Assembly (NCBI GenBank): GCA_030697205.1 | Contig: JAUYQP010000001.1 | Span: 1 to 64,000, forward strand | Direction: 5' to 3' | DNA: 64,000 nucleotides | DNA from: Mycobacteriales bacterium | GTDB lineage: Bacteria > Actinomycetota > Actinomycetes > Mycobacteriales > SCTD01 | Shown: in pieces, positions 15,538 through 60,480 of the stretch | Layout of the letters: each line of letters begins with the position of its first letter | Position numbering within the stretch: position 1 is the stretch's first letter | Program-made: the position numbers and the translations under genes | The notes under the pieces: model-generated | Told to the model about the DNA's origin: nothing | What the model saw: only the letters and a program-made list of their open reading frames with translations | The model's database searches: none

Positions 15538-16767
15538 GTGACGCCGACGAGCACGCAGACCCTGTACGACGTGGCGACCTACCGCGAGGTGCTGCGCCAC
15601 CGGGAGATGCCGGCGGTGATGACGGCCCACGCCATCTCGCTGACCGGGTCCGTCGCCGCCGAGGTCGCGCTGTCGGTGCTGGTCTACAGCCGCACCTCGT
15701 CACCGTTTCTCGCCTCCCTGACCCTCGCCTGCGCGTTCGTGCCCCAGGCCTTCAGCGCCTTCGTCCTGTCGGGCGTCGTCGACCGCGTCCCGCCGAGGCG
15801 GCTGCTCGTCGGGATCGACCTGCTCTGCGCGCTGCTCGTCGCCTGCATGGCCGTGCGCGAGGCACCGATCTGGGTGCTCCTGCTGCTGGCCGCCTGCGTC
15901 GGGGTGGTGACCCCGCTCTTCAGCGGAGCCCGGGCCGCCACCCTGGCCGACGTGCTGGAGGGCGAGACCTGGGTGCGGGCCCGGTCGCTGATGCGGGTGA
16001 TCTCGCAGAGCTCGCTGCTCATGGGCTTCGCGGTCGGCGGCATCGCACTCACCGTCGTCACGCCGCGGACGCTGCTCGTCGTCGACGCCGTCTCCTTCGC
16101 GCTGTCCGCAGCCCTGCTCCGGCTCGGGACCTCCGAGCGGCCCGCCCGGGCCGCGGGTGGACCCCGACCCTCGCGGGCCGCGATCGCTGCCCTGCGCCAC
16201 CCCCGAATCCGCCCGGTGCTGCTGCTCACCTGGCTGCCCGCGGCGTGCGTCTGCTCCATCGACGCGCTCGCCACCCCCTACGCCGCGCCGTCCACCATCG
16301 GCATCGGCGCCCTGCTCGTCGCAGCGGCAGCCGGCTCGGTCCTGGCGGAGGTCCTCGGTCGTCGGGTCACCCGGGTGGCCCCCGTCGCCGCGCTGACCGG
16401 TGTCGGGCTGCTGCTGTTCGCCTTCCACCCGCCGGTCTGGCTGGCCGTCCCTGTCGTCGTCCTCGCGATGCAGGGCGGCGCTATCGGGCAGTGGCTCGAC
16501 GCGCGCCTGCTCGAGGAGCTGCCGCTCGACCTGCGCGGTCAGCTGCTCGCCCTGCAGCAGGGCCTGCTCATGGGGATCCAGGGCGCCGGCGTCGCGCTGT
16601 CCGGCGCGCTGGCGGAGGTCTTCCCGCCGTACGCCGTGCTCGCCGGGGCCGGTGTCGTGGCTTTGGTGACGGTCGCGGTGCTGCTCCCGCAGGTGCAGCA
16701 CCGCGCCCCCACGGCGCTGACGCCGGTGGGGGCGGGGGAGCGGGCGACGGGAATCGAACCCGCGTAG
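15538..16767 (+). CDS. MFS transporter
   Basis: Predicted 409 residues with about ten to twelve hydrophobic segments, including VLLLLAACVGVVTPLFSGAR, TLLVVDAVSFALSAALL and LAVPVVVLAMQGGAIG, typical of the MFS efflux families paired with ArsR-type regulators. GTG at 15538 is the only close start. The 3' end overlaps the opposite-strand tRNA-Gly gene by 29 bases; the last residues (GERATGIEPA) are the antisense of the tRNA. The substrate is unknown; drug or metabolite export is an inference from the neighbouring regulator. Confidence 0.85.
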   Translation: MTPTSTQTLYDVATYREVLRHREMPAVMTAHAISLTGSVAAEVALSVLVYSRTSSPFLASLTLACAFVPQAFSAFVLSGVVDRVPPRRLLVGIDLLCALLVACMAVREAPIWVLLLLAACVGVVTPLFSGARAATLADVLEGETWVRARSLMRVISQSSLLMGFAVGGIALTVVTPRTLLVVDAVSFALSAALLRLGTSERPARAAGGPRPSRAAIAALRHPRIRPVLLLTWLPAACVCSIDALATPYAAPSTIGIGALLVAAAAGSVLAEVLGRRVTRVAPVAALTGVGLLLFAFHPPVWLAVPVVVLAMQGGAIGQWLDARLLEELPLDLRGQLLALQQGLLMGIQGAGVALSGALAEVFPPYAVLAGAGVVALVTVAVLLPQVQHRAPTALTPVGAGERATGIEPA

Positions 16768-16809
16768 CCAGTTTGGAAGACTGGGGCTCTACCATTGAGC
16801 TACGCCCGC
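16739..16809 (-). tRNA. tRNA-Gly (anticodon TCC)
   Basis: A 71-base cloverleaf read from 16809: acceptor GCGGGCG/CGCCCGC, D-stem GCTC/GAGC, anticodon stem CCAGT/ACTGG with loop CTTCCAA, and T-stem GCGGG/CCCGT with loop TTCGATT. The 3' CCA is not encoded. The 3' half overlaps the end of the MFS reading frame. Confidence 0.97.
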
Positions 16810-16844: not shown

Positions 16845-16917
16845 CGGGGCGTAGCGTAGTGGCTAGCGCGCCTGCTTTGGGAGCAGGAGACCGCGGGTTC
16901 GAGTCCCGCCGCCCCGA
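16845..16917 (+). tRNA. tRNA-Pro (anticodon TGG)
   Basis: A 73-base cloverleaf: acceptor CGGGGCG/CGCCCCG, D-stem GCGT/GCGC, anticodon stem CCTGC/GCAGG with loop TTTGGGA, T-stem GCGGG/CCCGC with loop TTCGAGT, discriminator A. CCA is not encoded. It is divergent from tRNA-Gly with 35 bp between them and lies 81 bp before tig. Confidence 0.97.
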
Positions 16918-20043: not shown

Positions 20044-21330
<1,287 letters not shown>

Positions 21331-21394
21331 ACCTCTCGCCCGCCGGACTGCCCGCCCTGGCGGCCTCGCCACGTCTCTTGAGGTAGCGCCGAAA

Positions 21395-21524
21395 GTGGCG
21401 ATCACGCCTGCTCGGCCACGCTCGCATGATCGCCACATCTCGGGTGGGCGCGTCCTGCCTGGCCGCCCTCTCGCGCAGATGTGGCGATCACGCCTGCTTG
21501 GTCACGCTCGCATGATCGCCACAT
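21395..21524. repeat. Two copies of dispersed palindrome family 1 (copies A and B)
   Basis: Copy A is at 21395-21438 and copy B at 21479-21524, between the convergent clpX and thioesterase genes. Copy B has perfect 12-bp arms ATGTGGCGATCA / TGATCGCCACAT around a 22-base centre; copy A has the same structure but its left arm has diverged at the outermost bases. The centres read CGCCTGCTyGGyCACGCTCGCA. The three copies at 60242-60457 are the same element in opposite orientation. It is not a known insertion sequence; it could act as a bidirectional terminator here. Confidence 0.85.
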
Positions 21525-21543
21525 TCCGCGGGCGGCGCGCGGC

Positions 21544-22290
21544 TTACGCCCGGTAGCCCGCGAGCTGGCGGGCCTGGCAGACGAGGCGGCCCTGGCTGTC
21601 CCAGATCTCGCACTCCTCGTCGAGCCAGCCGTCCTGCACGAGCCGGGCGCGCTGGACCGCGCGCAGCCAGCCCGGGGCGGGCAGGCCGCGCACGAGGACG
21701 GTGAGCTCGACGGTCGGCACCCAGCCGGGGATCGCGAGGTCGAAGGTCACCGGCGGCAGCGCGTCGGCGAGCACGAGCAGGTCGAGGGCGCTCGCGTCGC
21801 CGGCGGCCATCCGCACCCAGCCCTGCACGAAGCCCGTGCGGCCGGGCTCGCCGCGGGTGTAGCCGGTGGTGGCCGGGTCCAGGCGCATGTCGACGTGGTC
21901 GAGGTGGCCGACCCGGAAGCCCGGGACGGGCTCGGCGGGGGAGCGGGGGCAGTCCTCGATGGGTGGAAGTGCGGGCGGTGCGGTGTCGGACCACAGCGGC
22001 TCGGCGCTCTCGTCGTACCTCCCCGTGGTGACCAGGGCCTCGACCTTGAGGGCGCCCTGCACCAGGCGGGTGCGGGTGGTCGCGACGCGGCGGCCGGTGC
22101 GCAGCCGCTCGACCTCGATGTCGGCGACCCCGGGGTCGGGCGAGGCGACGTAGTGCGCGCTCACCGCCATCGGGTGCGGGTGGTTGTCGTCGACGGCCCG
22201 CTCGGCGAGGGCGCGCAGGAGGTAGCCGCCGTGCGGCTTGCCGCCGATCGACCAGGAGACGTCGATCTCGAAGGAGGGGTGCGCGGTCAC
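21544..22290 (-). CDS. Thioesterase family protein (TesB-like double hotdog)
   Basis: Predicted 248 residues with two hotdog-like halves. The N-terminal half shows GGKPHGGYLLRALAERA and HYVASPDPG; the C-terminal half ends CQARQLAGYRA, the typical ending of actinobacterial acyl-CoA thioesterase-like proteins. It probably hydrolyses an acyl-CoA; the chain length cannot be told. GTG at 22290 begins VTAHPSFEIDVSW; the ribosome site is weak. It is divergent from the small membrane protein at 22379. Confidence 0.82.
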   Translation of the reverse strand: MTAHPSFEIDVSWSIGGKPHGGYLLRALAERAVDDNHPHPMAVSAHYVASPDPGVADIEVERLRTGRRVATTRTRLVQGALKVEALVTTGRYDESAEPLWSDTAPPALPPIEDCPRSPAEPVPGFRVGHLDHVDMRLDPATTGYTRGEPGRTGFVQGWVRMAAGDASALDLLVLADALPPVTFDLAIPGWVPTVELTVLVRGLPAPGWLRAVQRARLVQDGWLDEECEIWDSQGRLVCQARQLAGYRA

Positions 22291-37181: not shown

Positions 37182-37241
37182 GATCAACAGGGGATCTGCA
37201 CGGGACACGCCGGTGATTCGCGTGCAGAGCGCCTGTCGATC
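37182..37241. repeat. Palindrome family 2, left copy
   Basis: 60 bp beginning GATCAACAGG and ending CCTGTCGATC, with inner arms CTGCACG/CGTGCAG. It covers the stop codon of the DUF559 gene and lies between convergent genes. It shares 48 of 60 bases with the right copy at 38397-38456 in the same orientation. It is preceded by a run of C-rich heptamers (37150-37180). Confidence 0.8.
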
Positions 37242-38396: not shown

Positions 38397-38456
38397 GATC
38401 CACAGGTGGTCTGCACGAGACTCGCCGGCGTGTTCCGTGCAGACCACCTGTCGATC
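38397..38456. repeat. Palindrome family 2, right copy
   Basis: 60 bp beginning GATCCACAGG and ending CCTGTCGATC. The 14-bp arms AGGTGGTCTGCACG/CGTGCAGACCACCT are perfect. It lies 69 bp upstream of the DUF559 start codon, between that gene and the radical SAM gene. Confidence 0.8.
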
Positions 38457-58775: not shown

Positions 58776-60176
58776 GTGAGCGGCGGCCTGCTCGACCGCG
58801 AGATCCGCTTCCACGACGCCCTGCGCGAGGCGGGCATCCAGGTCTCGCTCGCCGAGGTCCTCGACTCCACCCGCGCGATGGGCGCGATCGACCTGCTCGA
58901 CCGCGAGGCGCTGCGCCACGCCTTCGCTGCCTGCGTCCTCAAGCGACCCTCCCAGCGCACGACCTTCGACACCCTCTTCGACCTGTGGTGGCCACCGGTC
59001 ATCGGGGACCCCACCACCCAGGCGTACGACGGGGACGCGGCCGACGGCGAGGGTGACGGCGAGGAGGGCGGGCCCGCCGACGCGTCGCTGCTGCGCGAGA
59101 TGCTCGAGCGGCTGCTGCTCGACGGTGACGAGGAGGCGCTGCGGCGCTTCGCGCGCGAGACCGTGCAGCAGCTCGGCAAGGCCGACACCGCCCCGGGCCG
59201 GCAGTCGTGGTTCTCCTACCGGGTGCTGCGCTCGCTGTCGCCGGAGACGCTCGTGTCGTCGCTGCTCGAGGCGCTGCTGCAGGGCCAGGAGCGCGGCGGC
59301 CTCGCCGAGAAGGTCGCGCGCCAGACCATCACCGAGCGGATCCGGCAGTTCCAGGAGATGGTCGAGGCCGAGGTGCGCCGGCGGCTCGCCGAGACCCGCG
59401 GGGTCGAGCAGATCTCCAAGACCGCCGTGCAGCCGCTGGCCGAGCAGGTCGACTTCCTGCGCGCCTCGCGCAACGACATGGCCGAGCTGCGCCGCCAGGT
59501 CTTCCCGCTGGCCCGCCGGCTCGCGACCCGCCTCACCGCGCGCCGACGGCTGGGCGACTCGGGGCGCCTGGACTTCCGTCGTACGGTCCGTGCCTCTCTC
59601 GCCACCGGCGGCGTGCCGCTCGTGACCTACCACCGGCCCCACAAGCCCCACAAGCCCGAGCTCACCGTGCTCTGCGACGTCAGCGGCTCGGTCGCGGGCT
59701 TCGCGCACTTCACGCTGATGCTGGCCTACGCGCTGTCGGAGCAGTTCACCAAGGTGCGGGCCTTCGCCTTCATCGACACCTGCGACGAGGTCTCGCGCTT
59801 CTTCACCCCGGGCGGTGACGTCGCCGACGCGCTGTCGCGGATGTCGGCCGAGGCGGAGCTGGTGTGGTTCGACGGGCACAGCGACTACGGCCACTCGATC
59901 GAGCGCTTCCACGAGGCCTACCCGGACGCGGTCGGCCCGCGGACCTCGCTGCTCATCCTCGGCGACGCCCGCAACAACTACCGGGCCACCGGCGCGCAGA
60001 CGCTGAAGCACCTGGTCGCGAAGTCGCGGCACGCCTACTGGCTCAACCCGGAGCCGCGGGCCTACTGGGGCAGCGGTGACAGTGCGACGCAGCAGTACTC
60101 CGAGGTCATCGAGATGGTCGAGTGCCGCAACGCCGTCCAGCTCGAGGCCTTCGTCCAGAAGCTCCTCCCGACCTGA
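58776..60176 (+). CDS. CoxE-like VWA-domain protein
   Basis: 466 residues. The C-terminal VWA domain (about 285-460) has the MIDAS motif LCDVSGSVAGF; the N-terminal part is helical and charged with an acidic patch (GDGEEGG). Similar to CoxE, which works with the MoxR-type CoxD to assemble the copper-molybdenum site of CO dehydrogenase; no such enzyme is in the window, so the client is unknown. GTG at 58776. Confidence 0.9.
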   Translation: MSGGLLDREIRFHDALREAGIQVSLAEVLDSTRAMGAIDLLDREALRHAFAACVLKRPSQRTTFDTLFDLWWPPVIGDPTTQAYDGDAADGEGDGEEGGPADASLLREMLERLLLDGDEEALRRFARETVQQLGKADTAPGRQSWFSYRVLRSLSPETLVSSLLEALLQGQERGGLAEKVARQTITERIRQFQEMVEAEVRRRLAETRGVEQISKTAVQPLAEQVDFLRASRNDMAELRRQVFPLARRLATRLTARRRLGDSGRLDFRRTVRASLATGGVPLVTYHRPHKPHKPELTVLCDVSGSVAGFAHFTLMLAYALSEQFTKVRAFAFIDTCDEVSRFFTPGGDVADALSRMSAEAELVWFDGHSDYGHSIERFHEAYPDAVGPRTSLLILGDARNNYRATGAQTLKHLVAKSRHAYWLNPEPRAYWGSGDSATQQYSEVIEMVECRNAVQLEAFVQKLLPT

Positions 60177-60480
60177 CCCGACGGCCGGGCCCGCTGACCG
60201 CCCGCCCGCCCGCGCCTCCGCGCCTCCGCGCCTCCGCGGAGATGTGGCGATCATGCGCGCTGGCCCACGCTGGCGTGATCGCCACATCTCGGGCGGTCAG
60301 GGGCGCGGCGCCGGTCCTCACCTGCGGATGTGGCGATCATGCGCGCTGGCCCACGCTGGCGTGATCGCCACATTTCGGGCGGTCAGGGGCGCGGCGCCGG
60401 TCCGCACCTGTGGATGTGGCGATCATGCGGCTGCTCACGCTGGCGTGATCGCCACATCCGGCCGGGCAGCGGCGCGGGGC
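60177..60480. repeat. Repeat-rich intergenic region: tandem palindrome family 1 (copies C, D, E)
   Basis: The gap between the VWA and sigma genes has no ORF with coding support. CGCCTCCG is tandem three times (60213-60236). Palindrome copies follow at 60242-60287 (C), 60328-60373 (D) and 60414-60457 (E), each with ATGTGGCGATCA arms. Their starts are exactly 86 bp apart, and the 40-bp stretches between are nearly identical (GCGGTCAGGGGCGCGGCGCC in both), so this is an 86-bp tandem duplication that carries the palindrome. Orientation is opposite to copies A and B at 21395-21524. Confidence 0.92.

Follow-up and report, generated by a model that had tools for sequence, protein, structure and literature searches.

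A dispersed family of GGAT-tagged palindromes in a Mycobacteriales genome, probably mobile and located mainly on the 3' side of genes

Introduction

REPINs and GTAG REPs are short imperfect palindromes, mostly extragenic, as presented in the available sections of PMC3116915, PMC3733652 and PMC8266576. In the same sections, REPINs are inverted pairs that can be folded as one hairpin, occur in local clusters and are distributed patchily between species. The element described here resembles the REPINs and GTAG REPs accompanied by RAYT in Pseudomonas and E. coli, as those sections portray them, in being a short, extragenic, inverted palindrome with a clustered and patchy occurrence. It is an imperfect palindrome within the 20-60 bp size range of REP sequences, mainly extragenic and arranged in inverted pairs. 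It differs from them in its tag, which is GGAT with no GTAG before the palindrome, in its number (59 copies only), in its actinobacterial host and in the lack of any Y1 transposase found in 24 genomes of the family.

Neisseria dRS3 and the intergenic mosaic elements possess conserved inverted arms and a variable centre and form intergenic clusters. The present element is similar in its conserved inverted arms and variable centre, but its arms, size, host and repeat numbers differ. The dRS3 repeats have been classed with the CGTC-1 repeats in the accessible part of PMC3733652. According to the consulted portions of PMC2229807, PMC3733652 and PMC10969869, the Rickettsia palindromic elements (RPE) and CGTC palindromes are both intergenic and inserted in frame in genes of conserved proteins, and no dedicated transposase is known for the CGTC repeats. 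As far as these portions go, the likeness to the Rickettsia elements lies in palindromes both between genes and in frame within conserved genes, here cobB and nicO. The present element is, however, 46-50 bp long as against 105-146 bp, has another sequence and tag, and is found mainly at gene 3' ends, often in regular tandem arrays. The CGTC tag at one end is not present in its half-site consensus. As to the host lineage, subclass 1.1, of the IS200 type, is the only one present in the Actinobacteridae sampled for PMC6006769, according to the available part of that paper, and the accessible text of the REP survey PMC3733652 does not contain the word "actinobacteri-".

Results

Copies in the window

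The window is the whole 64-kb stretch of DNA that was analysed. A preliminary description of this DNA reported two palindromes between the convergent genes clpX and a thioesterase gene and three more copies about 39 kb away in reverse orientation; both observations were reproduced (Table 1). The window contains five copies in total, a doublet (21393-21524) and a triplet (60242-60457). The left arm of copy A is AAGTGGCGATCA, with a single mismatch, and its oriented loop is read on the - strand; judging by loop asymmetry, the 60-kb copies are oriented opposite to those at 21.4 kb. The clpX site is convergent; the genes on either side of the 60-kb site run in the same direction. The length of the A-B spacer recurs in many other arrays with little or no sequence in common, and the 86-bp unit comprising copy C and its spacer recurs at copy D with 97% identity. 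Allowing up to two mismatches, 11 arm matches were found in the window against 2.0 expected (maximum of 6 in 100 shuffles), and ten of them are arms of the five palindromes.

Table 1. Features of the window associated with the palindromic element
Feature	Position	Strand	Remarks
clpX	20044..21330	+	convergent neighbour; stop codon 62 bases 5' of copy A
Palindromic element, copy A	21393..21438	.	12-bp arms, 22-nt loop
Spacer A-B	21439..21478	.	40 bp
Palindromic element, copy B	21479..21524	.	perfect 12-bp arms, 22-nt loop
Acyl-CoA thioesterase (4HBT_3)	21544..22290	-	convergent neighbour, 19 bases past copy B
VWA/CoxE-like gene	58776..60176	+	upstream of copies C-E
Palindromic element, copy C	60242..60287	.	
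Palindromic element, copy D	60328..60373	.	
Palindromic element, copy E	60414..60457	.	20-nt loop

The window also carries two closely placed tRNA genes on opposite strands (16739-16809, minus; 16845-16917, plus). A second palindromic family is represented at 38402-38451 and 37194-37228, with arms around TCTGCACG / CGTGCAGA; its pattern ATCTGCACG-N-CGTGCAGA occurs in 16 distinct places of the genome, some of them in longer palindromes starting with TGATCA.

Insertion and distribution

On alignment with related genomes, the copies are shown to be insertions that the relatives lack, a property absent from the preliminary description and added by the present analysis. One array is a single element inside cobB (L089), between the CbiA and GATase_3 domains, where the protein has 16 extra in-frame residues made of the element in the interdomain linker. 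These residues are absent from all 13 full-length relatives aligned (one has four other residues) and from two partial relatives covering the site, 15/15 in total; two more partial sequences stop short of the site and were left out of the count. The corresponding DNA interval is exactly 48 bp shorter in eight of the 13 relatives and 36-49 bp shorter in the other five. The ends of the insertion are uncertain by a few bases, because the CobB relatives are 63-77% identical to the CobB studied.

Among the clpX loci of 16 relatives, one ended at the stop codon and 15 were usable downstream. The thioesterase gene adjoins clpX in 12 of these 15, and the element is missing from the 250 bp downstream of clpX in all 15. 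Genome G021 lacks it at clpX, though it carries elements elsewhere. In nicO, encoding a nickel transporter, three elements lie in frame in a histidine-rich loop, a region variable in the aligned relatives. Since these elements (L104, 3364-5082) translate as a histidine-rich repeat (e.g., GDHARSAPHGDHHIPH), the insertion may have been recruited as a metal-binding sequence.

The genome itself (G000) is a draft of 4,017,916 bases (4.02 Mb) in 59 contigs and the sole member of its genus in the comparison set. Some covariance match (E up to 0.05) was found in 15 of the 24 family genomes, and strong matches (E < 1e-5) in five of them (G000, G015, G017, G021 and G022), the best match outside these carriers having an E-value of 2e-4 (G004). 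In the sister genus, the 99% complete G012 has no match and the 100% complete G009 a single one (E 0.007). The sampled stretches contain at least eight elements in G017, at least four in G021, at least five in G022 and at least one in G015; they show more arm changes than those of G000, and their arm position 12 is occupied by A or T.

Palindromes with exact arms were detected in 12 of 200 relatives, four within the family and the other eight with one each. Among named genomes, 56 stretches contain 20 fixed bases of the element. Seven were assigned to the family by eye from loop sequence and length: four in CAN_BIN20 (Frankiaceae), the others in 0711_bin10 (Actinomycetota), 0711_bin6 and AVDCRST_MAG07 (Frankineae). 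We read most of the remaining 49 as coding matches. The viral contigs searched contain no exact match to the element, and the plasmid records include none with 80% coverage of the 60-kb array. A literature search found no description of the element sequence; the titles of the 15 papers listed, out of 348 containing a 9-mer from it, all seemed unrelated.

The half-site and its conservation

The pattern TGGCGATCA-N14..30-TGATCGCCA, with exact 9-bp arms, occurs in 53 places of the genome, and the reversed-pattern control in none. A covariance model trained on 55 copies, the E-values of which are rough, gave 118 two-strand matches at E < 2e-6, corresponding to 59 elements in 33 arrays (11 singles, 18 doublets and four triplets). 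The weakest of the 59 scores 35.3 bits and the next match 23.9 bits (E 0.005). Scoring covered the best 150 of the 13,917 candidates that passed a first look, so that weak copies could escape. Across the 264 kb given a full search, namely the window and 26 stretches picked around elements, no decayed copy falls in the gap from 35.3 down to 15.4 bits.

The unit of about 46-50 bp consists of two inverted half-sites flanking a variable centre, with the consensus GGATGTGGCGATCAYGCNNGCK derived from 110 half-sites. Positions -2 to 2 of these form the tag GGAT (G 82, G 105, A 102, T 90). Of the 59 loops, 46 are 22 nt long and 11 are 21 nt long; the two others measure 20 and 18 nt. The loop is asymmetric, YGCRCGCTC being stronger in one half (log-likelihood -1069 against -1118, sd 10.5, best -1100, for 30 sets of re-paired halves). 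Three further palindromes, L258 1494-1555, L263 1494-1565 and L158 4202-4257, have quite different arms, but their loops hold GAGCGTG or CTGAGCG, which is also the inner motif of the element described here; this could be chance or a shared core.

Arm positions 3-12 deviate from the consensus in 8 of 1180 cells (118 halves). Changes at positions 1-2 mostly have no match on the other arm, and the column pair 4/47 is unpaired in 14 elements and changed but paired in four. Since arm changes are mostly uncompensated, selection appears to act on sequence recognition and not on the hairpin alone; the preliminary description had attributed the conservation to selection on the hairpin, which is not sufficient in itself. 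Covariation was rejected as evidence for a hairpin: over the whole 23-pair structure, the observed pairing is below that in all 500 shuffles, which we take to reflect a better inner motif in one half than in the other.

The consensus half folds into GGAT followed by a stem of six base pairs, interrupted by a single bulge, and the loop ATCA, which has a REP-like look. At least five of the six pairs fit in 55/59 strong halves and 30/59 weak halves, a fit that follows from motif conservation. The folding energy is no better than with the inner part shuffled, and the half-site hairpin is a hint.

Arrays and spacers

The spacers of the 26 neighbour pairs measure 29 (three), 30, 39 (five), 40 (eleven), 48, 50, 51, 56, 78 and 80 bp; 16 of them are thus 39-40 bp long, with little or no sequence in common. 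Neighbours have equal orientation in 25 of 26 pairs. They differ in 5 of 520 arm-core cells, in 83 of 458 loop cells (18%, equal-length pairs) and in 262 of 520 flank cells (50%). Loop identity is 0.82 between array neighbours and 0.61 between arrays. The varying loops of the preliminary description are therefore a feature of comparisons between arrays, loops within an array being alike, whereas its conserved arms stand throughout.

Flank identity is barely raised between neighbours (0.63 and 0.65 against 0.60 between arrays), though the close flank is partly alike (right 3-10 bp, 0.56 against 0.38). As the close flanks are partly alike and the 60-kb spacer is repeated at 97%, it is likely that the arrays arose by tandem duplication followed by drift. 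The doublet was rejected as the mobile unit, the spacers not being carried along recognisably. In 15 oriented spacers of 39-40 bp, likeness is 0.380 at one end against 0.336 shuffled (maximum of 300 shuffles 0.370) and 0.338 against 0.335 at the other; the slight likeness at one end would be compatible with a trace of common spacer origin. The non-modal spacers of 29-30 and 50-51 bp are offset from the mode by close to whole helical turns (p about 0.006-0.01, for a period chosen post hoc), and helical phasing is suggestive only.

These features bear on an explanation that we regard as unlikely, though worth serious attention: that the half-sites form an array binding a host nucleoid or topology protein at gene ends with helical spacing, maintained by host selection whatever its origin. 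The near-invariant arms beside drifting loops and spacers, the mostly uncompensated arm changes, the prevalence of 39-40 bp spacers of unrelated sequence with others about one helical turn away, and the absence of decayed copies (best 150 of 13,917 candidates; 264 kb in full) fit such an array. It accords poorly with the 19 of 24 family genomes without a strong match, sister-genus G012 and G009 included, with the copies inside cobB and nicO and with the poor phase of the 48, 56, 78 and 80 bp spacers, and no protein was identified for it. As read from the alignments, the constancy of the arms calls for recognition by a protein, be it a mover, a host DNA-binding protein or both.

Position relative to genes

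With gene calls made by a home-made codon-usage gene finder, 13 of the 33 arrays are convergent, 15 codirectional and none divergent; two are inside an ORF and three at contig ends. Divergent gaps make up 29 of 101 gaps of at least 80 bp in the window and the 26 stretches. For the 28 arrays with two intergenic neighbours, the lack of divergent cases has a chance of about 8e-5, the control stretches having been picked around elements and being not fully independent. Three of the 33 arrays overlap genes: those in frame in cobB and nicO, and L101 at the end of an HTTM-domain gene, counted as convergent because the second gene call dropped that gene. The dispersed, mostly extragenic REP-like family on the 3' side of genes that the preliminary description had envisaged, with a genome search for further copies as its check, is thus borne out by the 59 copies.

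Abutting genes include clpX, RNase J, purA, crgA, polyprenyl synthase and SpoU methylase. The scan took in all 42 genes whose called 3' end is no more than 400 bp from an array; 34 have a Pfam match and eight have none. A regulon was rejected, since the Pfam matches share no common function. Insertion into pre-existing terminator hairpins was also rejected: left and right flanks of the same element are no more complementary than permuted ones (best z -1.6; in a second test, best z 1.1 at elements and 2.2 in one shifted control). When joined, the two flanks do fold well at certain loci. The flanks are C-rich on the left and G-rich on the right, with a peak 7-12 bp out, alike in convergent and codirectional settings.

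A transcription terminator or a stabiliser of mRNA 3' ends, with the RNA hairpin under selection, is improbable. Its attraction is that the nearest called stop codon is 11-101 bp away in 28 of the 30 arrays outside ORF calls, that divergent settings are missing and that RNA of the doublet has a folding energy of -89.5 kcal/mol (z -6.95). The terminator of the preliminary description nevertheless found no support: at the clpX locus, the region 20900-22000 has no site with a GC-rich stem, a short loop and a T-tract, and the orientation relative to the upstream gene is mixed in the 15 codirectional arrays (six same, nine opposite, one mixed array being assigned by majority). RNA structure alone would not call for identical arm sequence in 33 places, the changes at arm positions 1-2 described above are mostly uncompensated, and some copies are in coding sequence.

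Search for a mobilising enzyme

The RAYT-type partner suggested in the preliminary description was not found: the Y1 transposase domain PF01797 is absent from all 24 family genomes, the one studied included, and the control was positive in five of 14 named genomes. A classical REP moved by a RAYT that was missed or lost is accordingly very doubtful. Size, extragenic position, inverted pairing and the 6-bp half-site stem with one bulge and the loop ATCA behind GGAT speak for it; besides the missing domain, the tag GGAT, neither GTAG nor CGTC, speaks against it. A MITE belonging to a DDE transposon that shares these terminal repeats, which terminal inverted repeats and insertion would suit, is highly improbable, given that 46 bp is very short for a MITE, that no target-site duplication was detected (59 elements, offsets 0-6, k 2-10; no excess of flanking direct repeats) and that no exact half-sites beyond the palindromes bound a full-length element.

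In the genome, 84 of the 85 exact half-sites are inside the 59 palindromes, and the remaining one is beside an element. For this reason, the draft shows no longer element bounded by such ends; ends that have diverged, or an element absent from the assembly, would escape. The lone exact half-site (L095, 3938-3949), 26 bp before an intact element, is probably half of a broken copy.

One candidate partner gene, encoding 314 residues (L113, 4242-5183, minus strand) and nuclease-like by eye, has no Pfam or NCBIfam match and no solved relative. It is flanked by three elements on one side and two on the other, and its ortholog in G017 also adjoins an element. At 57% identity or more, matches beyond its own copy occur in G017, which has elements, and in G012, which has no model match; of the other carriers, G021 has a best match of 30% and G022 none. 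Its role as a mover is not supported, as it does not co-occur with the element. In a comparison of L113 3080-6350 (G000) with L143 1-2200 (G017), the nuclease-like gene appears inverted relative to a neighbour that was named murI-like by eye, and the segment in G000 has elements at both ends. This single case may represent an element-mediated inversion.

Discussion

It seems fairly probable that the family is a non-autonomous mobile palindrome that resembles REPINs or Rickettsia palindromic elements, bears a new end tag and expanded in this actinobacterial lineage. The match to REP, REPIN and RPE follows from the insertion, patchiness, small palindrome, inverted half-sites, extragenic bias, rare in-frame hits and lack of any detected target duplication. 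From the sequence comparisons, the element appears to work like a REP or RPE, but it is not filed as a member, since the defining REP tag and enzyme are both missing.

In this mobile family, a trans-acting DNA-binding enzyme would recognise the half-site and copy the unit to new places. Copying probably proceeds from a single-stranded or cruciform hairpin, which is favoured over a cut-and-paste DDE transposase because the 46-bp unit has no target duplication. A unit once placed would then be duplicated beside itself at about 86 bp. The 3' position might come from target choice or from tolerance, if insertions that land upstream of genes are purged. Against mobility stand the failure to find a mobilising enzyme, the partly alike flanks of neighbours, which allow plain tandem duplication, and the absence, among the candidates scored and the 264 kb examined in full, of the decayed copies expected of a selfish family, which suits a host function equally.

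A bolder reading, which we put forward tentatively, is that the family represents a third REP-like class, GGAT-tagged and belonging to Actinomycetota, with a non-Y1 mover, and that the mover or a partner also sets copies in helical phase, giving regular doublets with unrelated spacers. If this were true, the enzyme or its partner would place or keep new copies at helical distances from an existing copy.

RAYT transposases account for the proteobacterial REP-like repeats, and to our knowledge the RAYT-less repeats have no known mover. In the present family, comparison with relatives shows the insertion directly, the arms evolve at a rate very different from that of the loops, and the mover can be sought within one 4-Mb genome and a few carrier and non-carrier relatives. 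The movement of RAYT-less palindromes would therefore be testable here.
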